64,000 nt of DNA from Fibrobacter sp. (GTDB lineage: Bacteria > Fibrobacterota > Fibrobacteria > Fibrobacterales > Fibrobacteraceae), in NCBI GenBank assembly GCA_024398875.1, contig JAKSIJ010000007.1, forward strand, positions 1 through 64,000, read 5' to 3'. Position numbers and translations under genes: made by a program. Every line of letters begins with the position of its first letter. Position 1 is the first letter of the stretch. Below are positions 8,981 through 53,335 of the stretch, one piece after another. The notes beneath the pieces are model-generated. The model worked only from the letters and a program-made list of their open reading frames with translations, made no database searches and had not been told where the DNA came from.

Positions 8981-9018
8981 TTTAGGTTGCGGGTAAAACC
9001 GCTCCCACATAAAATTAA

Positions 9019-9050
9019 AACGGCGGTCTCAGGCGGGGCCGCTGTTTTTT
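9019..9050 (+). terminator. Rho-independent terminator of pgi
   Basis: The arms AACGGCGG (9019-9026) and CCGCTGTT (9039-9046) pair with one G-U, followed by a T-run. It lies about 40 nt past the pgi stop. Confidence 0.85.
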
Positions 9051-9130
9051 ACAAGGCTGATAAATCCAGTGGTATTTTTCCTGGAGAATTTGTCGACATT
9101 ACATCCCGCATGGGAATTTATCTAACAGCA

Positions 9131-10201
9131 CTATGTTCTCCTCATGGCTTCAAGTAATTCCATGAAGTAATACGCCTTATTTCTCTTTTTGTCGTTACTA
9201 CAAAGTATTTGTTTTTCTTCCAATGTTTCCAGATATCGCTTTGCTTGGCCAATAGTCACGCCCAGGCGATTAGCCAATTCCTTTGAATTGAGGATTGGCT
9301 GCTTAAAAAGTATTTCCATAATGGAATCAAACTTTGGACTATTGACAGAATCCTTTACAGCAATTCGCGTTTTTTCATATAATGCGTTCAACAAATCAAT
9401 ATAGCTAATGTGTTTTTTTGCTTGAACAATCACTTTTTTCAAAAAGAACGCGATCCATTCATCATAATTTCCTCTTCTTGAACTATCAAGCTTGTTATAG
9501 TAAACAATTTTATCCTGTGCAATCGCCTCACTTAGGTAGAAATACGGATGACGAATCAAACCTGCCTTATATAGACACAAACTAATGACCACTCGTCCAA
9601 CACGGCCATTCCCGTCCTCAAATGGATGGATTGATTCCATTTGAGAATGAACGAGTGCCGCCTTGATAAGGGGATTGATACCATCGTTTTTATTATTCAT
9701 GTATTGAATAAGTTCATCCATATATTTTCTAGTCTCTAAATAGGATGGCGGTTCAAAAACAATCTTACCAAACGAATTGACAATATGATTATTCTTCTCT
9801 TTATAACGGCCCACCACATTTTTTTCAGGATTGCAAATATCGTTCAACATTAATCCATGAATTTTTTGTATAAAGGAGTGCGAAAATATATCGGCTTTTA
9901 GGTATTCTTCTCCATAGTGAAGTGTATGAATATGATTACGGAACTCAACGATTGCCTTTGCCTGCGATGGTTTTGTAGCAATGTTATCTTCCAGAACGTC
10001 CGTAATCGTTGTTTGCGTGCCCTCAATGTACATTGATGCAATAGCCTCCTTGTTGTGAAGCATAGGCATCAAAACGCTATTGAATTTATAACTGCCTATT
10101 TTCGCCTCAAGTATACCAAGAAGCATAGAGGCTTCCACCAATTCGTTTATAAACGCATTGGCATTAAAATCGTTCAACCGATCTTTAAGAAATGGGAGCA
10201 T
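9131..10201 (-). CDS. Fic-domain protein adenylyltransferase with winged-helix tail
   Basis: Fic proteins transfer AMP (or another nucleotide part) to Ser/Thr/Tyr of target proteins. The 356 residues contain an N-terminal inhibitory helix motif SxxxEG (56-61, SMYIEG) typical of class II Fic proteins, the beta-flap around 140-152, and the full active motif HPFEDGNGRVGR at 192-203. The last ~90 residues resemble a winged helix (NSKELANRLGVTIGQAKRYLETLEE), found in many chromosomal Fic proteins. No separate antitoxin is adjacent, as expected when the inhibitor is internal. The gene is AT-richer than pgi and opens an accessory region. Confidence 0.9.
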   Translation of the reverse strand: MLPFLKDRLNDFNANAFINELVEASMLLGILEAKIGSYKFNSVLMPMLHNKEAIASMYIEGTQTTITDVLEDNIATKPSQAKAIVEFRNHIHTLHYGEEYLKADIFSHSFIQKIHGLMLNDICNPEKNVVGRYKEKNNHIVNSFGKIVFEPPSYLETRKYMDELIQYMNNKNDGINPLIKAALVHSQMESIHPFEDGNGRVGRVVISLCLYKAGLIRHPYFYLSEAIAQDKIVYYNKLDSSRRGNYDEWIAFFLKKVIVQAKKHISYIDLLNALYEKTRIAVKDSVNSPKFDSIMEILFKQPILNSKELANRLGVTIGQAKRYLETLEEKQILCSNDKKRNKAYYFMELLEAMRRT

Positions 10202-10226
10202 AGGTTACCAATAATTTTTTTAATCC

Positions 10227-10814
10227 TTACAAATTTCCGCCGGAACGAGGAGCAACGCCGCCTTCGATTTCAATTTTTTCTCGCTCTATTTCTTTTCCCG
10301 AGTATTTTGTTCTTTTAAATTGTATGGGCAGCTTAAATTTTGTTTTCCCGTTAGATTTTTTAAATATCCACTTGGAGGCTTTTTGTTTCAGCTTTTCGTC
10401 AAAGGCGTTGTTATTTGTCGTAGAAGTCTCTATGTAGATTGATTCAACGACACCACTGCTATCGATGGTAAAAACAAATGTGACATTGCCTGCAAAGTAA
10501 GAGGAATCCTGAGAATTTTTTCGCATTTCCTTTATATAATTTTCATACATCATGTCAAATTTTGAATAAGAGATTCCTTTCATAACGCCCGAAAAAATAT
10601 CAACATCAGAAAGAGACGCTTCAGAAGCGAGCTGGGCATTTCCCAGAACAACTTCAAAAGGGGCGTGAACCACATCGCAATATCCTGGAACAAGATTTGT
10701 GCACTTCAAATAAATGGTATTTGTAAAAACAGGAAATTTTTCTTTAGGTATTTCCTTAGCTTCTGTATTAAGGGCAAATGCCATTAATGCGATAACAATA
10801 AAAATTGATTTCAT
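10227..10814 (-). CDS. periplasmic protein with TonB/AgmX-like C-terminal domain
   Basis: The start at 10814 is chosen because it gives a clean signal peptide (MKSIFIVIALMAFALNTEAKE); a longer frame begins at 10865 but adds only an unlikely basic leader. The mature ~175 residues end in a segment, NVTFVFTIDSSGVVESIYIETS...FDEKLKQKASKWIFKK, with the pattern of the TonB C-terminal/AgmX-PglI domain, although no N-terminal membrane anchor or proline stretch is present. It may therefore be a soluble periplasmic domain protein rather than an energy transducer. It lies 25 nt from the fic start on the same strand. Confidence 0.65.
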   Translation of the reverse strand: MKSIFIVIALMAFALNTEAKEIPKEKFPVFTNTIYLKCTNLVPGYCDVVHAPFEVVLGNAQLASEASLSDVDIFSGVMKGISYSKFDMMYENYIKEMRKNSQDSSYFAGNVTFVFTIDSSGVVESIYIETSTTNNNAFDEKLKQKASKWIFKKSNGKTKFKLPIQFKRTKYSGKEIEREKIEIEGGVAPRSGGNL

Positions 10815-10881
10815 TTTGAAGTTATCCCTTGAAAACACGTTGCATTGAAGTTTTTTACAATGCAACGAGATTTCGTTCTTG

Positions 10882-11604
10882 TTAATTCATACCTTCTTTA
10901 ATGATTTGACAATATACATCTACAATAGCTTTTAGCAGAGGCCAAATGTCAGATTTTTTGTCAATCACAATTTTTTGAGTTCTTGCGTCTAGTCTTGCTT
11001 TGTCCATTTCATCAAGCAATGCGTCGTATTCATCAAACTTACGCATAAATGCATTATAGGTTTCATCGGACAACGAAATTTTAGCACTTCTTCGCCGGCG
11101 TTGATGATCTTTTTGCAGCATTTGACGAACAGACACTAAAGCTTGGTGAGACAACTCATGATTGAAAGCGTTCTTGACATATTCCGCAGCCCACTCTTGG
11201 GCGAGATATGTGGTTGAACCAGGCTTCTTGTATGGTTCAAACAAATTGCCATACCAATCATTTTGCTTTGTGCAACCAAAATAATCGTTATTGCGGTTCG
11301 ACTTGACGATTTCGCTGCATTTATCGCTAACCAGATTCAGGTCGCTTACAATTAGCTTGTCGTTTTGCGAACTGAACCGCACATTTCGCTCCCCCAATTT
11401 TTCTGCAATGGGTTTGAACATTTCGGTTGCTTGAGCGAGAGCCCAATCCCAATGCCGATTGAAGAATAATTCCCTATCTTCAATGTAATTTTCGAGGGGA
11501 TCGTTTTGCACACGCTGGGATTCTGCCGCACCGTATGCATTGTAGTTGTATCTTGTGGAGGGATTACTAGAGCAACCCCGTTCCAGGCTTTCAAAAGAAG
11601 ACAT
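10882..11604 (-). CDS. unknown protein, basic/acidic helical
   Basis: The product is not recognised. The start at 11604 is supported by AAAGAGG six nt upstream; the frame itself extends to 11664. The 240 residues are hydrophilic with no signal peptide, although residues up to SLERGCSSN include one cysteine. The middle has YLAQEWAAEYVKNAFNHELSHQALVSVRQML, where HELSH is only superficially like a zinc-protease HExxH (H-E-L-S-H fits HExxH). The tail is helical and charged. A metalloprotease role is possible, but no downstream glutamate pattern is convincing. It sits between the TonB-like gene and an HNH remnant in an AT-rich accessory stretch. Confidence 0.6.
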   Translation of the reverse strand: MSSFESLERGCSSNPSTRYNYNAYGAAESQRVQNDPLENYIEDRELFFNRHWDWALAQATEMFKPIAEKLGERNVRFSSQNDKLIVSDLNLVSDKCSEIVKSNRNNDYFGCTKQNDWYGNLFEPYKKPGSTTYLAQEWAAEYVKNAFNHELSHQALVSVRQMLQKDHQRRRRSAKISLSDETYNAFMRKFDEYDALLDEMDKARLDARTQKIVIDKKSDIWPLLKAIVDVYCQIIKEGMN

Positions 11605-11723
11605 AAGTACCTCTTTGTTAGCCATTTCAATGGGAATTATCGAAATAGCAGTTGAACTTACCACAGATAATGCTACCTTAAAGATATCAGGGTCTCTCGA
11701 GGTAGCAATACCTGGTGGACTTG

Positions 11724-11759
11724 AACCGGAGGTCTGCGCTAACAGACTTCCGGTTTTTT
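11724..11759 (+). terminator. orphan Rho-independent terminator
   Basis: Arms AACCGGAGGTCTG (11724-11736) and CAGACTTCCGGTT (11743-11755) pair over 13 positions with one G-U, with a six-base loop and a T6 run. No annotated plus-strand gene feeds into it. It could end a small RNA or be what is left of a deleted gene. Confidence 0.8.
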
Positions 11760-11798
11760 GTGAAAATGGTTTGCAATTCCCGCAAAACGCATTTTCAC
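11760..11798. repeat. imperfect inverted repeat next to the orphan terminator
   Basis: GTGAAAATG at 11760-11768 pairs with CATTTTCAC at 11790-11798, and inner TTTGC (11770-11774) pairs with GCAAA (11782-11786). The function is unknown. Confidence 0.55.
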
Positions 11799-11921
11799 GG
11801 AATAAACTACATTAATTTAACATTTTTGTCAAATATACGTGCATATTTTTAATAAAAATGCACGTATAACTTATATAAATTGTATAATGACTGCATTTTT
11901 TAGCAAATTTGCGATTAAATG

Positions 11922-12161
11922 CTACCTATTCCCTTTCGATTTGTTATGCGTTTTGCAAAGCATTTCGCAATTAGCGGGGTCGATGGCGCCGCCCTTGCTC
12001 CAGGCAGCCACGTGATCAGCGTCCATCTCGGCGAGTTTCCAGATTTTATTCTTATTCGGCTTCACTATAAACCGACGGGCAAACAACCACCCATGCGGCA
12101 TAAAGACCATGAGCATAATATAATTCTTTTTATGTGTCAGGAAATTGTCAATGAACAGCAA
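11922..12161 (-). pseudogene. C-terminal remnant of an HNH endonuclease
   Basis: The last ~45 residues read WKLAEMDADHVAAWSKGG...NCEMLCKTHNKSKGNR, the His-Asn-His zinc-finger-like signature found at the C-terminus of many HNH nucleases. The expected N-terminal domain is missing: upstream sequence is a low-quality leader with a TTG start and an in-frame stop shortly before it. It is therefore read as a decayed or truncated gene, possibly clipped when hipBA was inserted. A functional mini-HNH protein is less likely. Confidence 0.55.
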
Positions 12162-45018: not shown

Positions 45019-45315
45019 TTACACGGGATCGGGAATAATTATTTGCCCAGTGACATAGCGATGGACAAGCGAGTTCAAAAGCGTCTGGTAGGGAATCCCA
45101 GCGGCATAAGCTTTCTCCTTGAACTTCCTCATATCCTCTTCATTGGACCTGAAGGAAACCATCTTGGTGTTTGGAGTGCCCTCCTTATAAGCCGCCTTGA
45201 AATCCCGCCAGATTTGTTCTTGTTTTTCTTTTGGAAAAGGTTTGGCATCACTATTTTCCACGGCCTCCATCAAGGCGCGTTCTTCTTCATCGAAAGGTTC
45301 GTCAATAAATTCCAT
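45019..45315 (-). CDS. BrnA/CopG-like antitoxin
   Basis: The 98-residue acidic protein has a C-terminal ribbon-helix-helix-like region (KMVSFRSNEEDMRKFKEKAYAAGIPYQTLLNSLVHRYVTGQI), matching the CopG-fold antitoxins whose members read IPYQTLIxSLLHKY. The N-terminal ~50 residues are likely the toxin-binding part. It begins one base after the toxin stop, so the order is toxin then antitoxin, as in brnTA. No toxin-like motif is seen within it. Confidence 0.82.
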   Translation of the reverse strand: MEFIDEPFDEEERALMEAVENSDAKPFPKEKQEQIWRDFKAAYKEGTPNTKMVSFRSNEEDMRKFKEKAYAAGIPYQTLLNSLVHRYVTGQIIIPDPV

Positions 45316-45316
45316 G

Positions 45317-45580
45317 TTAGACTCCTTTTCCTTTGTTGTACTTACGGCTCCTAAAAGCCGTTTTCAAAAATGTGTCTCCATTTGACTCTTTTACGTAAGG
45401 AACACAGACTGCGTAACCTTCGTAATCAAGTACAAACATCTCCTGACCTGGATGATCCTTTTGATTTTCCACAGGGTAGGCAAGAGCTTTGCCCCGTTCA
45501 ATAATCTCGGCGACCTTCGCAAGATCAATACCACGTACCAACAGCAATTGTCGGTACTTATCGTCATTCCATTTTACCAT
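45317..45580 (-). CDS. BrnT-like toxin
   Basis: The 87-residue protein (KWNDDKYRQLLLVRGIDLAKVAEIIERG at the start, TFLKTAFRSRKYNKGKGV at the end) resembles the BrnT/DUF4258-type RelE-like ribonuclease toxins, which cleave RNA. The start overlaps a 17-bp inverted repeat and a promoter whose -10 box ends at the base before the ATG. The antitoxin follows one base later. BrnT assignment is from pattern memory; it might be another small RelE-superfamily toxin. Confidence 0.72.
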   Translation of the reverse strand: MVKWNDDKYRQLLLVRGIDLAKVAEIIERGKALAYPVENQKDHPGQEMFVLDYEGYAVCVPYVKESNGDTFLKTAFRSRKYNKGKGV

Positions 45581-46003: not shown

Positions 46004-46413
46004 TTAGTTTTTATTGATTCTCTTTTGCACGGATTGAACATGGTTGGATTGCGTCCAGCAGTTTTCCTTTACTTTTTCCGCCAGGGCATATTGCGCGATT
46101 TCGTTCCGGCGATAATTGCGCATGACGGATTTGACATCCAGTTGAACGCCAACGATTTTGTGGTAGGGTTTAGAGCCGTCCAGCCAGTCGCCGGAAGCGG
46201 TCCCGAGAAAACGCATCATGTACGGGCCGGTTTGGGCTTTTGTCGCAGGTTCTACAAAGCGAAGGATGGCATGGTCATCGCCGGCATCATGGCAATACGG
46301 TAAAAGGAACACATTGTAGATTGCCTCGCCACTTGCGAATCCCTTCTGTTCCGCGAATTCGGCGTACACCATCTGTTTGCTGATGGAACTTGACGTAGGA
46401 AGATTGCCGTTGG
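46004..46413 (-). pseudogene. C-terminal fragment of a LlaJI-like restriction endonuclease
   Basis: The minus-strand frame reads PTSSSISKQMVYAEFAE...IYNVFLLPYCHD...FLGTASGDWLDGSKPYHKIVGVQLDVKSVMRNY, a pattern recalled from the C-terminus of LlaJI/McrC-like nucleases (KQ-Y, FLLPY, and the late GDW...YxxIxGxxxDxxxxM segment). The frame is open only back to a stop at about 46414, just before the end of the Z1 gene, and an internal ATG at 46372 is the only usual start. The N-terminal part is missing, so it was probably truncated when the downstream cassette arrived. Confidence 0.5.
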
Positions 46414-46420
46414 TATAGAA

Positions 46421-48301
46421 TTACATTTTAAAAAACGTGTATCCATCAGGTAATGTAATTGCTGGCATCCATAGAGGGGTCCCGTTCCAGCCTAGATTTC
46501 TTGCTCCAGTCAATCGATACATCACAAATACAATCTTATCTAGATGTTTTTGAATTATTAATCTATCATTCGCAGAAAGCATTGTCCCCGTTCCCGAACT
46601 TATTGCACGATTCCTTTTTACCAATAATAATGCTTTTTTATTTTCAAATTCATCCATCTTCGCAAGAGAATCTAATGCATTAACAAAGTTTTTCGATTGC
46701 CAATCTTCCTGACAAGCACTATCAATCAAGTTCAAAATTTGTTTAAGCAATGAGATGTCAACTTGATACATTTTTTCAGAATCGGGAAAACCAGACATTA
46801 TTTGATCTAGCAACATTAAATCTTTGTTTTGCGGATATGATGCAAAATAATTCACACCTCCAACAAGTAATTGTAATTTTTGAGCATCAATTACGTTCTT
46901 TCTAGTTGGACGAATTCCATTCATATAAAGTAAATGAGTATCATCTAAGCCATTATTTCTAATTTGTCTTACCAATGCATTCTGTGAAGAATTTAACTCT
47001 TGGAAAAGTTTATGAACAAATGGAGGCATATACAATCTAATACTACTTCGATCTCTATCGTAACCAAACATACGGCAATGTTGCCAAAATGTATCTGCCT
47101 GCGGGACCCTCGCCGTTCTTGAATAGTAAACTGTTTGTAGGTGTGGGAATGTTACGCCACGTCCCAAAGTATTTCCTCCAATCACAATATTGAATCCTTT
47201 TGTGATTGTCTGCGATGCATCAGATTCTGAGTTTAATGTGATAACGTTAACCCTCATATCAAACAATAAATCTCTAACACTAGAATAAATCTTGTTGAAT
47301 GACGGGAAATCGGGTTTTGAAGAACGAATGTCACGCCAAACATCTTCAAATGCCTTTTGCTGGATGTCATCATCTATATTCAATAAAATATCATTAAGAT
47401 GAGCCCTGATTTTCAACGCAATCAAATTGTGCTCTTTAATTCGGACACTTGGGTGTACAAGAGCCGAACACGTATCTTTTCCAAGAAGACTCGTTTCTGA
47501 GGCAACAAGAAGAAAATGTCTTACCGCGGTTGCCAAGCCTTCCGTAATTTCTGCATTTTCTTCTTTATTGTCGTCAATTTCTGATTCATCAATTTCGCGA
47601 ATACAAAAAGAGTCTGGTTTGGCAAAGAAAAAGTTTCCTCCAACATAAGCTTCGCCAGGTTCAAAATACGTCACAGCGTCGGGCCTAAAGTCTGATTCCA
47701 AACTTTGTAACATTACTGCTTGAGGTGTTGCCGTGACTTGCATATAAATACAAGAGTTTGCATCATCACGAATAGCTCTTAAATTCATATTAATTGCACT
47801 ATATTCATCCTTATTGACCTTAGTATTAAGACTTCCTGCATCCGCTTCGTCATCAATTATGAAAATAGGGGAATCTTTCAATCGTTGAGAATCAAGAAAT
47901 TCATTTCTCCATTTTTTTAAAATTTTAGAGTTTTTCTTCAAAATCACTAAAGACGGCAAAGTCATATTTTTTTTAAAACGAAGGGTGTCATTTTCGCCAC
48001 AAACAGACACTCCTTCTTGAAAACTTTCCAAAGCTCTTGTAAAAGTTTGATTTTGAAGTTTAGTGTTGTCACTCGTCACAAGCAAAAAGTGATAAAAACC
48101 CGCATCTATAGCGGCAGCCATTACTCCAAACATATGACTTGTCTTTCCACTTTGCACTTCACCTAAAAGAAGCTCGTTGAAAAACTTTTTCTTAAATCCT
48201 GCAAGAAGGTCTTTTTTTAGAATTTTGTTAGCAGTATCTTGAATACTTTTTTTAGTGTCCTCAAAAGGCACAGACGACAAATATTTTTCCAAATAACTCA
48301 T
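46421..48301 (-). CDS. Z1-domain ATPase/helicase-like protein
   Basis: The 626-residue protein belongs to the Z1-domain family, a superfamily-II-like ATPase found next to restriction enzymes. Walker A is GEVQSGKT (47-54), Walker B-like IIDDEAD near 150, a VTATPQ motif near 188, and GNTLGRGVTFPHLQTVYYSRTARVPQADTFWQHCRMFGYDRDRS (helicase motif V/VI equivalent). It starts three bases after the nuclease stop, so it is the third gene of the methyltransferase-nuclease-Z1 operon. It probably drives translocation or remodelling during restriction. A-T-rich codon use contrasts with core genes. Confidence 0.82.
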   Translation of the reverse strand: MSYLEKYLSSVPFEDTKKSIQDTANKILKKDLLAGFKKKFFNELLLGEVQSGKTSHMFGVMAAAIDAGFYHFLLVTSDNTKLQNQTFTRALESFQEGVSVCGENDTLRFKKNMTLPSLVILKKNSKILKKWRNEFLDSQRLKDSPIFIIDDEADAGSLNTKVNKDEYSAINMNLRAIRDDANSCIYMQVTATPQAVMLQSLESDFRPDAVTYFEPGEAYVGGNFFFAKPDSFCIREIDESEIDDNKEENAEITEGLATAVRHFLLVASETSLLGKDTCSALVHPSVRIKEHNLIALKIRAHLNDILLNIDDDIQQKAFEDVWRDIRSSKPDFPSFNKIYSSVRDLLFDMRVNVITLNSESDASQTITKGFNIVIGGNTLGRGVTFPHLQTVYYSRTARVPQADTFWQHCRMFGYDRDRSSIRLYMPPFVHKLFQELNSSQNALVRQIRNNGLDDTHLLYMNGIRPTRKNVIDAQKLQLLVGGVNYFASYPQNKDLMLLDQIMSGFPDSEKMYQVDISLLKQILNLIDSACQEDWQSKNFVNALDSLAKMDEFENKKALLLVKRNRAISSGTGTMLSANDRLIIQKHLDKIVFVMYRLTGARNLGWNGTPLWMPAITLPDGYTFFKM

Positions 48302-48304
48302 TGG

Positions 48305-49348
48305 CTACACTCCAAAATCCAAGAACCACTCATTTTCATTGAGACGAATCATCTTCATTGTATTTCGTCCATACGAACTCAAGACACTCTCCGTAACCGG
48401 TTTTCCAGAAATTAAAGAGCCAGCATTTTCAAGACGGCCTTTCAACCATTTTCCTAGAATTCTCAAATCTTTAGCAGATCTAAGGTTCTTTGAATAGTCG
48501 CCACTTGTTTTACATTGAAATGTAAAACCATCGTCCGTATAAACAGTGAATTCTCTTTTTTGTGGATAGCTAGTTTCACCAGTTATAGATTTGGGGACAA
48601 TTAATTCAACCTCGTACCAATCTCTCGGTAACGTAATACCGTTAGCAGTATTTTCGCGACCTTTTCCAAAAAAAACGTTCAGATTACTCTTTTCTTCTGT
48701 TTTCAAAGGTATTTCAAATACTTTCTTCGACTTTTCCGCAAGAACTTTTAGCGAGGCCAGTTTTTCATCGCTAATCTTTTTAACATCAAGATAATTCTCA
48801 AATAACTTTCGGTCATTCTGGATTTTCACATCTTCATTACGAACATCTTGTAATGAAATGCAGTTTTTATCTCTAAGTTCGGAAAAGAAAGTTTTTAGTG
48901 GTTTTGTGATTCCTATTTCATCAGTAAAAACGTCATTATCAAAAACACGTTCCATGATGTTTAATTTGGATATATTACTTGATCCAACTATTGATTTGTA
49001 TTTGTTTTGAAAATATTTGACGAGATATATTTTGCCATGATATTTCGTTCTATTAGCGAGATAGACGCAGCCTCGTTCACCTTTTTGCAAAATTTCGTTC
49101 AAATATTTCAAGCCATCGTATTGAGCTTGTGTAAATCCTTCAAAATAGTGCATTCCAATTATGAGTTCTAGATGGGCAGAATATTCTTTTTCATATAGAC
49201 CTACTAGTTTTGCAATAGATTCTTCGGAGCAATATCCTGTAGCGATAGAAATTTCTTGAGCTCCATCTAACATGGAATCAAATGTGTCGATAAAAGTTTT
49301 CCCTCTCCACTCTACTGGGAAATAGCTTGCTCCCAATAGCTCTATCAT
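48305..49348 (-). CDS. NgoFVII-like restriction endonuclease with phospholipase D fold
   Basis: The 347-residue protein starts with a phospholipase-D-type nuclease domain. His104 and Lys106 in YHGKIYLVKY, then GSSN at 122-125, form one HxK...GSxN catalytic set; such enzymes (BfiI, NgoFVII) work as dimers with a single HKD motif each and need no metal. The C-terminal ~130 residues (VELIVPKSITGETSYPQKREFTVYTDDG) would be the B3-like DNA-recognition domain. It overlaps the methyltransferase stop by ATGA and is followed by Z1. Its sequence specificity cannot be told. Confidence 0.8.
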   Translation of the reverse strand: MIELLGASYFPVEWRGKTFIDTFDSMLDGAQEISIATGYCSEESIAKLVGLYEKEYSAHLELIIGMHYFEGFTQAQYDGLKYLNEILQKGERGCVYLANRTKYHGKIYLVKYFQNKYKSIVGSSNISKLNIMERVFDNDVFTDEIGITKPLKTFFSELRDKNCISLQDVRNEDVKIQNDRKLFENYLDVKKISDEKLASLKVLAEKSKKVFEIPLKTEEKSNLNVFFGKGRENTANGITLPRDWYEVELIVPKSITGETSYPQKREFTVYTDDGFTFQCKTSGDYSKNLRSAKDLRILGKWLKGRLENAGSLISGKPVTESVLSSYGRNTMKMIRLNENEWFLDFGV

Positions 49349-50463
49349 TTCAAGCCTCTTTGCTGATAATCATACATCAAGCGATCTTTTATAGAAAGCT
49401 TTTGCAGTTCTTTGTTGATTTTTTTAATATCAACTCGTTGATAATTGTTTGAAAAAAGAGGTTTCAAAGTTTTTGCAATAAGCTTAACACCTGTAGGAGG
49501 TACCGCGTTCCCAATTTGTCTACGAACTTCAGCAATTGATCCCTCAAAAACAAAATTGTCTGGGAAGGTTTGAATTCTGGCGCGTTCTCGATTTGTTAAC
49601 GGCCTAGGTTCAGGATAATGATAGCCCCATGTTCCTCCGCCTCCAGCAGCGATAATTGTTGTAGAAGGTTCGCTTCTGTGAATTCGACGATACACATGGC
49701 TAATCATTCCCTTTACATACAAGGGGTCATCTGGAGAAATATCTGTAAAATTACCACCCTCAGAAATTTTTTCAAGGCGTTTTCTTACCTTTTCTGTAAT
49801 GTTGATGATTTCGTTGTTTGCAGAGACTTTTTCAACATTTTTGAATGCGTCACCAACAGTGACGTAAGGTTGTGAGCCTCTTGGCCCATGAGTCGGTGCT
49901 GGGTGAATGAAATTAAATCCCAAATCTAATCGTATTCCAACGAGAAGCACCCTTTCTCTAAATTGAGGAACCCCATATTCCGCAAAATTGTAAAGTTGCA
50001 TTTTCACCATGTAACCTGGTCCAATTTTGCTAAAATCTTCGATAATTTGTTTTATAGCTCGGCCATCATTTGCGGTAAGAAGACCCTTCACATTTTCAGC
50101 CACAAACGCTTTAGGTTTCTTAGCCGCAATAAAGCGCAAGAAATTTTTGTAGAGGCTGCCTCTATTTCCTTCTAGCCCAGGCTGTTTCCAAATGATAGAG
50201 AAATCTTGACAAGGGAAACCTCCAATAATTAGGTCGCAGTCTGGAATGCTTTTATCTATATCAGGCTCAATGTTCTCAATATTCTCGGAAGTTATAACAT
50301 CGCCAAAATGGTTTCGAAATGTTTTAACAGCCCATTCATTGATGTCGTTTGCCCAAACGGTTTTGTAACCACCAACTTGTTCAAAGCCCAAATCAAGTCC
50401 ACCACACCCAGAAAATAAAGAAAGGACTTTTATTTCCTTTTGTTTGGTCTTTTTTCCCGCCAT
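49345..50463 (-). CDS. DNA (cytosine-5) methyltransferase
   Basis: This is a C5-cytosine methyltransferase of 372 residues with start ATG at 50463; a TTG-initiated frame to 50520 is less likely. Conserved motifs: I (LSLFSGCGGLDLGFEQVG), IV with catalytic Cys (GGFPCQDFS), VI (VAENVKGLL), VIII (QFRERVLLVG), IX (RRIHRSEPSTTI) and X (VRRQIGNAVPP). It is the first gene of an operon with a PLD nuclease and a Z1 ATPase and presumably protects the host's recognition sites. The target-recognition region (about 240-300) is short. Confidence 0.93.
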   Translation of the reverse strand: MAGKKTKQKEIKVLSLFSGCGGLDLGFEQVGGYKTVWANDINEWAVKTFRNHFGDVITSENIENIEPDIDKSIPDCDLIIGGFPCQDFSIIWKQPGLEGNRGSLYKNFLRFIAAKKPKAFVAENVKGLLTANDGRAIKQIIEDFSKIGPGYMVKMQLYNFAEYGVPQFRERVLLVGIRLDLGFNFIHPAPTHGPRGSQPYVTVGDAFKNVEKVSANNEIINITEKVRKRLEKISEGGNFTDISPDDPLYVKGMISHVYRRIHRSEPSTTIIAAGGGGTWGYHYPEPRPLTNRERARIQTFPDNFVFEGSIAEVRRQIGNAVPPTGVKLIAKTLKPLFSNNYQRVDIKKINKELQKLSIKDRLMYDYQQRGLK

Positions 50464-50587
50464 GTATGTCTCTCGCTCCTCGCGTTGAAAGTGAACGAGT
50501 TCACCCTCATTCGGGAGCAAGAAACCGCGATGTCAGAACAAATAAAGAAAACGCTCGCACGCGCGTGAGTACGCGTAAACAGCACGG

Positions 50588-50602
50588 CCTATCAATCATA
50601 GG
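50588..50602. promoter_or_regulatory. palindrome upstream of the methyltransferase gene
   Basis: CCTATCAATCATAGG has five-base arms and a five-base centre, 125 bases from the methyltransferase ATG. It might be an operator or part of a leader; nothing proves it. Confidence 0.3.
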
Positions 50603-50626
50603 TCGCCGAACGTTTGTCTTATTTCG

Positions 50627-50654
50627 TGTTCAGAAATTGTCGAAGTTTCAGGTG
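50627..50654. repeat. 28-bp direct repeat, copy 1
   Basis: Identical over 28 bases to 50901-50928, with extended imperfect similarity on both sides (shared GTCGCC upstream and AAGAGCAAA downstream). Spacing between copies is 274 bases. Confidence 0.8.
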
Positions 50655-50900
50655 CGAATAAGAGCAAACCCAACAAGAGCCGCTCCTGTCGCGAAACTTC
50701 CACACGATACAAATGAAAAAGGCGTGAGGCTGAATGCGCTTACCCACCTTAGGCCTTCGACTGCCATGAACAAATAAACGCAAACAACCCACGCCCCAAA
50801 AGGTCGCACTACACAAGGGCAAACCGATATACAGAATACCAATGTGGTAGAACGATGCGGTAGAGTAAACCACCGCAGACGTGAGCGTCGCCTTATTCCC

Positions 50901-50928
50901 TGTTCAGAAATTGTCGAAGTTTCAGGTG
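50901..50928. repeat. 28-bp direct repeat, copy 2
   Basis: Second perfect copy of the 28-base repeat, starting TGTTCAGAAATTGTC. The pair frames a GC-richer core of about 246 bases. Confidence 0.8.
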
Positions 50929-51050
50929 AGGAACAAGAGCAAAACTCTTTATGTACGATAAAAATATAACTAATCCGCATGTCAGTAGATGTCAAAACGC
51001 ATGAATTTTGAGCGATGGAAAATTGCATCGCCCACAGCGGCCTTTGTAAC

Positions 51051-51169: not shown

Positions 51170-51186
51170 TTACAATGAGGTTAAAT

Positions 51187-51498
51187 ATGGCGACATCATT
51201 ACTACAAATTCGAATGGATGAAGATTTGAAAAACCAAGCGGCCGAGTTGTTCGAAAGTCTCGGCATGGACATCCCTACCGCAATTCGGGTGTTTTTCAAG
51301 CGAGCCCTTGTCGAAAAAGGTTTGCCCTTTGATGTCAAGGCCACGTCGTCAAATGAAGTTGATGACCCGATGGGACTTTTGTCTTCGCTTCAAGCCCTGA
51401 ATGCCAATGCTCAAAAAAATGGAACCGCCGGCATGAGCGAAGAGGAGATCGAAGCCGAAATCAAGCTGATGCACGAGGAGCGGAGGAAGAAAAAATAG
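51187..51498 (+). CDS. RelB/DinJ-family antitoxin, no adjacent toxin
   Basis: The 103-residue ribbon-helix-helix protein matches the DinJ/RelB family: SLLQIRMDEDLKNQAAELFESLGMDIPTAIRVFFKRALVEKGLPFDV. DinJ normally pairs with YafQ just downstream; here the gene is followed in 3 bases by a 42-base direct repeat, then a KilA-N gene. Start at 51187 is chosen because GAGG lies six bases before it; the ATG at 51175 lacks such spacing. It may be an orphan antitoxin or have lost its toxin. Confidence 0.87.
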   Translation: MATSLLQIRMDEDLKNQAAELFESLGMDIPTAIRVFFKRALVEKGLPFDVKATSSNEVDDPMGLLSSLQALNANAQKNGTAGMSEEEIEAEIKLMHEERRKKK

Positions 51499-51500
51499 TC

Positions 51501-51542
51501 CGCATCTTGGGCGGCGCCGATTTTTTCAAGAAAATTGCGCGG
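51501..51542. repeat. 42-bp direct repeat, downstream copy
   Basis: One mismatch (C for T) against 51051-51092. It starts three bases after the dinJ stop, so the antitoxin gene with its promoter sits between the two copies. Confidence 0.88.
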
Positions 51543-51585
51543 TCTGTTGCTTTTTCGCTTAATTTTAGTTATATTTTGTTCACTA

Positions 51586-51630
51586 GCACATTTGTGCATT
51601 TGTTTTGTGTTTTTCAGCTTGTAACACAAA
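51586..51630 (+). promoter_or_regulatory. KilA-N leader element, copy 1
   Basis: GCACATTTGTGC (51586-51597), then TTTGTGT (51604-51610) complementary to ACACAAA (51624-51630). The second hairpin arm directly precedes and partly covers the AAAGGAG Shine-Dalgarno. A matching element precedes the second KilA-N gene. Confidence 0.6.
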
Positions 51631-51639
51631 GGAGTGAAT

Positions 51640-52449
51640 ATGAGCAAGATCGAAGTCATGAATACAGGCATATCCCTTAGAAAAAATAATGACGGGGATT
51701 ATATAAGTTTAACGGATATGGCGAAATACAAGAATTCCGAGGCTACAGGTCTTGTCATTTCTCATTGGCTCAGTACACGTTTTGCAATCGATTTTTTAGG
51801 AATTTGGGAAACTATAAACAATCCCAATTTTAATGTTACTGAATTCAGTAACATTAAAATGAATGCTGGTGCAAACGGAAATGTTCTTTCCGCAAAGCAA
51901 TGGATTGAAAAAACAAACGCTATTGGCATCGTTTCTTCTGCAGGTCGATATGGAGGGACCTACGCACATTCCGACATAGCTTTTGAATTCGGTTCTTGGC
52001 TCAGTCCGGAGTTCAAATACTATCTAATTAGAGAGTACCAGCGTCTCAAGGCGGCCGAACAGGCAGAGCTCGGCTGGTCCGTCAAGCGGGAACTCTCAAA
52101 AATTAATTATCGAATTCACACGGACGCCATTAAGCAGAACTTGATTCCTGCGACGCTTACTTCACGCGAGACGTCCATTGTGTATGCAAGCGAGGCCGAC
52201 GTTTTGAACATGGCCCTGTTCGGCTTTACTGCGGCGGAGTGGCGCGAGTCAAATCCTACGTTGCCTGGGAATGTTCGGGATTATGCGACAGTCAACCAGC
52301 TGATTTGCCTCAGCAACATGGAATCGCTGAACTCCGTATTGATTAACGAAGGTGTGGCGCAAAGTGAACGTCTTGTCAAGCTGAACCAAATTGCCATCTC
52401 GCAGATGACGGTTCTTGAAAACATCGAGGGACGAAAAATTTTGAAGTAG
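51640..52449 (+). CDS. KilA-N domain protein, first of a tandem pair
   Basis: KilA-N is a DNA-binding domain of phage and mobile-element proteins. This 269-residue protein has it at about 20-135 (DYISLTDMAKYKNSEATGLVISHWLS, then NAIGIVSSAGRYGGTYAHSDIAFEFGSWLSPEFKYYLIREYQRL). The C-terminal 135 residues are helical and nearly identical to the next gene's, whereas N-terminal halves differ. ATG at 51640 follows AAAGGAG by five bases. Antirepressor or transcription-regulator roles are typical of the family. Confidence 0.85.
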   Translation: MSKIEVMNTGISLRKNNDGDYISLTDMAKYKNSEATGLVISHWLSTRFAIDFLGIWETINNPNFNVTEFSNIKMNAGANGNVLSAKQWIEKTNAIGIVSSAGRYGGTYAHSDIAFEFGSWLSPEFKYYLIREYQRLKAAEQAELGWSVKRELSKINYRIHTDAIKQNLIPATLTSRETSIVYASEADVLNMALFGFTAAEWRESNPTLPGNVRDYATVNQLICLSNMESLNSVLINEGVAQSERLVKLNQIAISQMTVLENIEGRKILK

Positions 52450-52471
52450 CCTTGACCGTTTTGAAAATTTC

Positions 52472-52519
52472 GCACATTTGTGCATTTGTTTTGTGTTTTT
52501 TTTCAGCTTGTAACACAAA
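52472..52519 (+). promoter_or_regulatory. KilA-N leader element, copy 2
   Basis: GCACATTTGTGC (52472-52483), then TTTGTGT (52490-52496) and ACACAAA (52513-52519), three extra T in the loop compared with copy 1. The Shine-Dalgarno AAAGGAG overlaps the 3' arm. Confidence 0.6.
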
Positions 52520-52528
52520 GGAGTAAAG

Positions 52529-53335
52529 ATGAGCAAGATTGAAGTCATGAATACCGAAATTTCCGTTCAAAACGTGAATGGCGAAGATTACATCTCGTTG
52601 ACGGATATGGCCAAAAGCCAACTACAAGAGCATATTATTTTTAAATGGCTCAGTACAAAGAATACTATTGAATACATTGGGGAGTGGGAATCTATTTATA
52701 ATGCAAATTTTAATTATACCGAATTCGGTACAATTAAAAATGCAGCAGGCTCCAATAACTTCGTTTTATCAACTAAACAGTGGATTCTCCAGACTAATGC
52801 GATTGGCATTATTGCAAAAACTGGCAGATACGGAGGAACGTACGTCCATCGAGACATCGCTTATCATTTTGGAATGTGGATAAGCCCTAGATTCCAGTTA
52901 CTTATGGTAAAAGAGTACCAGCGTCTCAAGGCGGCCGAACAGGCAGAACTTGGCTGGTCCGTCAAGCGGGAACTCTCAAAAATTAATTATCGAATTCACA
53001 CGGACGCCATTAAGCAGAACTTGATTCCTGCGACGCTTACTTCACGCGAGACGTCCATTGTGTATGCAAGCGAGGCCGACGTTTTGAACATGGCCCTGTT
53101 CGGCTTTACTGCGGCGGATTGGCGCGAGTCAAACCCAACGTTGCTAGGGAATGTTCGGGATTACGCGACTGTCAACCAGCTGATTTGCCTCAGCAACATG
53201 GAGTCGCTGAACTCCGTATTGATTAACGAAGGCCTTCCTCAAAGCGAACGCCTTGTCAAGCTGAACCAGATTGCCATCTCGCAGATGACGGTTCTTGAAA
53301 ACATCGAGGGACGAAAAATTTTGAAAGATTTATGA
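52529..53335 (+). CDS. KilA-N domain protein, second of a tandem pair
   Basis: The 268-residue paralogue of the preceding protein keeps the first nine residues (MSKIEVMNT), a diverged KilA-N domain (20-130, with SQLQEHIIFKWLS and GRYGGTYVHRDIAYHFGMWIS) and a C-terminal half almost identical in DNA and protein to copy 1 (52914-53328 against 52034-52448, offset 880). Start follows AAAGGAG. The final residues DL replace a stop in copy 1. It probably binds different DNA or operator sequence from copy 1. Confidence 0.85.
   Translation: MSKIEVMNTEISVQNVNGEDYISLTDMAKSQLQEHIIFKWLSTKNTIEYIGEWESIYNANFNYTEFGTIKNAAGSNNFVLSTKQWILQTNAIGIIAKTGRYGGTYVHRDIAYHFGMWISPRFQLLMVKEYQRLKAAEQAELGWSVKRELSKINYRIHTDAIKQNLIPATLTSRETSIVYASEADVLNMALFGFTAADWRESNPTLLGNVRDYATVNQLICLSNMESLNSVLINEGLPQSERLVKLNQIAISQMTVLENIEGRKILKDL

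Follow-up and report, generated by a model that had tools for sequence, protein, structure and literature searches.

Architecture of the locus

The window analysed here is a stretch of 64,000 nucleotides (nt) from Fibrobacter sp. (assembly GCA_024398875.1, contig JAKSIJ010000007.1). On its minus strand it carries three tightly linked genes, M, R and H, encoding a C5-cytosine DNA methyltransferase (MTase), a PLD-type endonuclease and a Z1-domain ATPase, and ahead of M a structured leader (Table 1). We are confident, short of certainty, that the trio is a restriction-modification (R-M) operon of the CglI/NgoAVII class standing behind a leader of ~500 nt, which belongs to an RNA family of Fibrobacter and has the anatomy of an attenuator. 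The genes M and R share 4 nt (ATGA), R and H are separated by 3 nt, and the GC content of the operon is 35-40% compared with ~50% over most of the window. The ATG of M is preceded by GGAG, as in other leader copies; an alternative TTG start, 57 nt upstream of the ATG, falls within the hairpin predicted at the ribosome-binding site (RBS) in the leader.

All three frames are full length with intact motifs and their Pfam domains are full-length curated matches well above chance. They are also matched by near full-length PADLOC models filed under Type II R-M names (MTase_II, 8e-116; REase_II, 6e-85; Helicase_II, 2e-195). M is a C5-cytosine DNA methyltransferase (PF00145, 1e-79). R is composed of an N-terminal PLD domain (RE_NgoFVII, PF09565, 8e-26) and a C-terminal B3-like DNA-binding domain (RE_NgoFVII_C, PF20731, 2e-34), contains only one catalytic set, H104-x-K106 and GSSN (S123-N125), and matches the solved R.NgoVII structure 4rct with 3.7e-71. 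H contains a Z1 domain (Pfam, 5e-25) and a weak ResIII/SF2 match, with the motifs Walker A GEVQSGKT (GKT at 52), DDEAD (DEAD at 151) and TAT (190), and its C-terminal domain matches the solved CglIIR C-domain 6f1s with 3.5e-14; judged by these motifs, H is a DEAD-Z1 helicase-like ATPase with a CglI-type C-terminal domain. The first-pass annotation, made from the letters of the DNA, had already described a cassette of C5 methyltransferase, NgoFVII-like nuclease and Z1 ATPase, with a single HxK...GSSN set, an ATGA overlap, a 3-nt gap and a high AT content, and in all these points it proved exact.

The trio as a member of the CglI/NgoAVII class

CglI from Corynebacterium glutamicum and NgoAVII from Neisseria gonorrhoeae are three-gene systems that were characterised biochemically between 2014 and 2017 (PMC4267653, PMC5737866). 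The Fibrobacter trio shares with them the linked gene order M-R-N/H, an endonuclease with PLD and B3 domains, a C5 MTase and an ATPase carrying DEAD, Z1 and CglI-type C-terminal domains together with the Mg-binding DE. An N. gonorrhoeae locus has these three genes in identical order, with identities of 65.5% for M, 41% for R and 39.6% for H. The catalytic H104 of R has the identical index in the N. gonorrhoeae homologue and the DEAD motif of H begins at 151 compared with 150; by this match of positions in the alignment they correspond to the residues that were mutated in NgoAVII, i.e., H104 and D150 with E151. What differs is the host, the ~40% identity of R and H to the N. gonorrhoeae locus, and the leader, which accompanies the trio copies of Fibrobacter and was not found at the CglI-type loci examined outside Fibrobacter. 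The trio alone is thus a further member of the class, of low novelty by itself, and only extends CglI-class restriction to Fibrobacter.

For the characterised systems it was reported that R binds GCCGC via its B3 domain and does not cleave DNA alone, that the ATPase is active only together with R on unmethylated DNA, that R and N assemble as R2N2 (demonstrated for CglI), and that the cut is placed 6-7 nt downstream of the site (PMC4267653). In CglI communication takes place along the DNA, most likely through translocation, and the cut is made when two complexes collide (PMC5737866). By analogy, M would methylate a recognition site that is probably GCSGC-like, while an R dimer would bind the unmethylated asymmetric site via its B3 domains and build one PLD active site. 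H and R would form an R2H2 complex, in which H may hydrolyse ATP and translocate until collision with a site-bound complex leads to cleavage of both strands a few nucleotides further downstream. The B3 domain (56% identity to the NgoAVII-type locus) and the region of the MTase target recognition domain (TRD; 68%) are better conserved than the PLD domain (31%); this conservation is compatible with a GCSGC-like target but is no proof of it.

Other known systems resemble the trio in part. BceSIV from Bacillus cereus also combines a PLD nuclease with a jointly working ATPase (PMC4267653), a likeness taken from its published description. The Type IIS enzyme BfiI likewise has a PLD and a B3-like domain, but cleaves without ATP or a helicase partner. 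With the MZA system H shares the Z1 domain of MzaC, whereas the gene content is different, and membership was rejected, as H scores 52.3 bits with the MzaC model against a curated cut-off of 1500.

The B3 domain family was found in 6 of the 111 genomes of the taxonomic family. Complete M-R-H sets are present in the window, in L009 (genome G071), in L022 (genome G004) and in L008, a contig (JAKSHZ010000043.1) filed as a metagenome-assembled genome of Bacilli; L008 is likely misbinned Fibrobacter DNA, since its trio is 82-90% identical and stands behind a Fibrobacter leader. In three loci of the Fibrobacteraceae genus g4 (L019, L020, L021) M and R are present and H had no match in the fetched stretches, and the Providencia plasmid L017 carries M and R with no adjacent H. 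These loci are possible ATP-independent relatives. A conjugative plasmid of Lactiplantibacillus (L018) encodes relatives of R and H next to a DUF262 protein and a dissimilar MTase in divergent orientation.

Three other explanations of the trio were weighed. It is improbable that the operon has decayed into an inactive remnant: in related loci R is cut short or H is not found (L012, L017), but the window has three full-length frames with intact motifs, and L008 and L009, two further copies behind the same leader, are likewise complete. Still less probable is that R works alone like BfiI, with H as an accessory or with another function. Loci in which M and R occur with no H nearby would fit this, yet R.CglI and R.NgoAVII show no DNA cleavage without the ATPase and H is conserved beside R in most aligned loci; the statement in the first-pass annotation that NgoFVII/BfiI-type enzymes normally cut alone with a methyltransferase was incomplete, as the RE_NgoFVII Pfam family includes R.NgoAVII. 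Its proposal of ATP-assisted restriction by a PLD nuclease with a Z1 motor agrees with the biochemistry of the homologous CglI and NgoAVII (PMC4267653, PMC5737866) but is not new. Its suggestion of a novel system bridging Type II and ATP-dependent restriction is scarcely tenable, for although a PLD nuclease, a Z1 ATPase and a Type II-like MTase do occur together, the same combination in identical order is already characterised as CglI/NgoAVII and PADLOC models exist for each protein, so that the trio is a well-described type, an outcome the annotation itself had named as refuting it.

Structure of the leader

The leader, on which the first-pass annotation is silent, is the more unusual feature of this locus. 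A covariance model (CM), R1, was built from 44 leader copies and finds the leader of the window with 154 bits (50714-50894, minus strand). Read in the direction of transcription, a putative promoter-like block is followed by hairpin 1, the 5' arm of a candidate antiterminator, a predicted intrinsic terminator, hairpin 2 and a predicted RBS hairpin (Table 1). Hairpin 2 is a 37-nt direct repeat (DR) of hairpin 1, and the loops of the two hairpins present the repeats DR1 and DR2, to both of which an anti-repeat between the terminator arms is complementary. Terminator and antiterminator have the arm GGCGUGAG in common and are mutually exclusive helices, each paired in nearly all alignment cells. 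The palindrome of the RBS hairpin is present in 63 of 87 leader copies; in most strong copies (CM R1 at least 100 bits) the sequence directly before the start codon folds with GCUCC:GGAGC around GUGAACUCGUUCAC.

Covariation was counted for two alternative structures in an alignment (A1) of 49 non-redundant copies with 500 shuffles as control. In the structure with antiterminator and anti-repeat:DR2 pairing, 95.7% of cells pair (shuffles 90.3%) and 143 cells are changed on both sides (shuffles 48), and none of the 500 shuffles equals the real alignment. In the structure with terminator and DR1:anti-repeat pairing, 95.2% of cells pair (shuffles 89.1%) and 145 are changed on both sides (shuffles 45). 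When the partners are slid by 1-3 columns, pairing falls to 37-48%. As shuffling ignores the relatedness of the copies, an alignment-free test of repeat and anti-repeat was added. On average an anti-repeat reaches -21.6 kcal/mol with the DR1 of its own copy compared with -11.5 for the DR1 of other copies, and -20.0 kcal/mol with its own DR2 compared with about -11; the own DR1 is the best of 77 partners in 78% of cases. The same is seen in two sets of copies outside the definition of the test, namely 24 weaker copies (own -26.7, other -16.2) and 15 further copies from other genera (own -27.5, other -17.3). The leader is thus a well-supported structured RNA by these measures, and it is from its anatomy that we infer attenuation.

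Table 1. Coordinates of the operon, the exchanged segment and the leader elements in the window.
Feature	Position	Strand	Remarks
H gene	46421-48301	minus	626 aa
R gene	48305-49348	minus	347 aa
M gene	49345-50463 (from ATG)	minus	372 aa; first gene of the operon
Exchanged segment	46169-50455	minus	identity to sister genome G044 resumes at 50456 and at 46079-46168
Structured RNA leader	~50464-50973 (approximate)	minus	CM R1; fold z-score of the region -6.5; covariation; multicopy family
Putative AT-rich conserved promoter-like block, TTAGTTATATT	50957-50973	minus	5' edge of the conserved leader; alignment of 25 copies
Hairpin 1	50892-50939	minus	DR1 (50913-50930) in loop; 99.2% of cells paired, 4 pairs changed on both sides
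Antiterminator, 5' arm	50878-50891	minus	pairs with the region of the terminator 5' arm, from 50797 downwards; 97.6% of cells paired
Predicted intrinsic terminator	50716-50797	minus	5' arm 50785-50797; 3' arm and U-run 50716-50732; 96.6% of cells paired
Anti-repeat	50738-50761	minus	between the terminator arms; complementary to DR1 and DR2; covariation
Hairpin 2	50618-50664	minus	DR2 (50639-50656) in loop; 93.6% of cells paired
Predicted RBS hairpin	50475-50518	minus	GCUCC pairs with the Shine-Dalgarno (SD) sequence GGAGC around GUGAACUCGUUCAC

Occurrence of the leader family

Leader-like DNA was detected by BLAST in 74 of the 80 genomes of the genus, and CM R1 matches 79 of these 80. Across the phylum 89 of 168 genomes have matches, which are limited to 4 of 41 genera, i.e., Fibrobacter and three sister genera. 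An identity with a known Rfam family was rejected, since the search of the locus with Rfam 15 gave only chance-level matches off the leader (mir-451, E 0.22), and eight leader-bearing loci had no Rfam match at E up to 0.1. Carriage by phages or plasmids was likewise rejected: INPHARED and PLSDB gave no match, nor did IMG/VR when scanned for an exact pattern. The leader is undescribed in the literature searched; some RNA surveys, among them one from 2017 with 224 candidate RNAs, lay outside this search and an earlier description is possible.

The R-M controls described so far mostly rely on controller proteins, or on antisense RNAs that belong to single systems. In a review on the regulation of R-M systems antisense RNAs are discussed, and the words 'attenuation' and 'riboswitch' are absent from its main text (PMC3874152). 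The antisense control of EcoRI and Eco29kI (PMC3874152) is alike in that RNA influences R-M expression. It differs in that these are antisense RNAs from reverse promoters, whereas the Fibrobacter RNA is a 5' leader in sense orientation, which carries terminator/antiterminator and repeat/anti-repeat pairing and is common to unrelated R-M types.

Genes behind the leader and exchange of the operon

In total 87 leader copies were fetched, and the first downstream gene was readable in 83 of them, falling into 24 clusters. Pfam assigned 20 cluster representatives to C5, EcoRI-type, N6/N4 and D12 MTases, HsdM, MmeI, a Tsp45I restriction endonuclease (REase) and a GmrSD/HNH protein; in the one cluster with no hit an Eco57I-type MTase comes next, or is fused in L199. 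In a census of 15 well-assembled genomes, all 20 strong copies stand directly upstream of R-M genes of unrelated kinds, which is a striking association. The leader is no requirement for R-M genes, as in the same genomes it precedes 12 of 42 C5 MTase genes by our count. Weaker copies (~85-97 bits) are single-module: they are without DR2 and the RBS hairpin and keep the DR1:anti-repeat pairing and the terminator. The MmeI-type genes come after weaker copies. We take the single-module copies to represent the family in its general form, and those at R-M genes to be an elaborated subclass. Exclusive association with R-M was rejected for the family as a whole, given the non-R-M genes behind weaker copies and a copy of 126 bits in a sister genus (L198), the first long downstream open reading frame of which is an alpha/beta hydrolase. 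The single-module copies of L168-L186 and L204-L207 precede mostly non-R-M genes encoding DUF6884, CBS, zinc-ribbon/TM2 and secreted or unknown proteins, and would make up a broader regulon. The genes upstream of leaders (L071, L075, L080, L085 and others) are often divergent and by eye RhuM-, ORF6N- or KilA-N-like, as in the window.

The sister genome G044 has another cassette at the same site, with flanks that are 93-97% identical. This cassette (L045, 9393-15701) encodes a different C5 MTase, a 279-aa protein with no Pfam or PADLOC match, an SNF2 helicase, a GHKL (MzaB-like) ATPase and an HNH protein. The breakpoint lies at window position 50456, within the first codons of M, and the MTases of both genomes start with the residues MAG; the leader upstream of the breakpoint, a stretch of ~640 bp, is 97% identical between the window and G044. 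By this comparison of sequences the leader was retained and the operon exchanged.

Proposed control by the leader and alternative explanations

On balance we consider it likely, with some reservation, that Fibrobacter and its near relatives possess a hitherto undescribed family of switchable leader RNAs with covarying repeat/anti-repeat and terminator/antiterminator, of which the tandem-repeat subclass with RBS hairpin is a standard control module before interchangeable, unrelated R-M operons including the CglI type. The leader would be transcribed, would terminate and would switch, antiterminator and terminator competing for one arm. The anti-repeat may pair with the upstream or the downstream repeat, the repeats would decide the switch, and the predicted hairpin would hide the ribosome-binding site. 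In this way the leader would limit and set the expression of whichever R-M operon lies behind it, the operons being interchangeable. Three points weigh against this picture or against the reading of the trio: the weaker copies precede mostly unrelated, non-R-M genes; the shuffle control of covariation does not remove the relatedness of the copies; and, for the trio, BceSIV of the same class has the site GCWGC (PMC4267653), so that the specificity of the Fibrobacter copy cannot be assumed from its class.

Alternatively, a short terminated leader RNA could act in trans on other leaders via its anti-repeat, similar to an antisense RNA, and thereby set R-M expression. We regard this as unlikely. 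In its favour, a single anti-repeat matches both DR1 and DR2, the latter in the downstream mRNA leader, with a complementarity that is copy-specific. However, pairing in cis explains the covariation equally well, and selection for orthogonal repeats within a genome was not supported (permutation p = 0.38; only 72 within-genome pairs).

Somewhat less likely again is a role of the leader as an attC-like site of DNA recombination, or as the end of a mobile element that moves R-M cassettes, its fold mattering as DNA rather than as a regulatory RNA. Operons do change behind the same leader, the copies are dispersed and the helices would fold in single-stranded DNA too. Yet in all copies read the leader has the same orientation as the gene, and it combines a terminator and U-run with an antiterminator that competes with it and a predicted hairpin that masks the SD. 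The breakpoint of the swap coincides with the start codon and hence falls outside the core of the element, and weaker copies stand before ordinary genes.

If control by a switchable leader RNA is true, it would be a general RNA answer to the long-standing question of how R-M genes are kept safe on entry or swap. The methyltransferases found behind this single RNA module include at least the C5, EcoRI-type, D12, N6/N4-type, Eco57I-type and HsdM kinds, to which a Tsp45I-type REase is added, and since the module stands before so many R-M types, R-M control by a portable leader is directly testable. There is also a practical clue, as Fibrobacter are gut fibre degraders in which restriction barriers would hinder transformation.

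Neighbouring genes in the window

Beside the cassette, two small genes on the minus strand (45019-45580) show sub-threshold likeness to the CopG/BrnA antitoxin and DUF4258/BrnT toxin families and may form a toxin-antitoxin pair. The region adjoining the leader on its other side (51175-53335) contains a RelB/DinJ-type antitoxin gene with no obvious toxin, followed by two KilA-N genes, the coding and upstream parts of which are repeats of ~79% identity. A second low-GC stretch of the window (9001-12000; 36-41%) is possibly another acquired segment.

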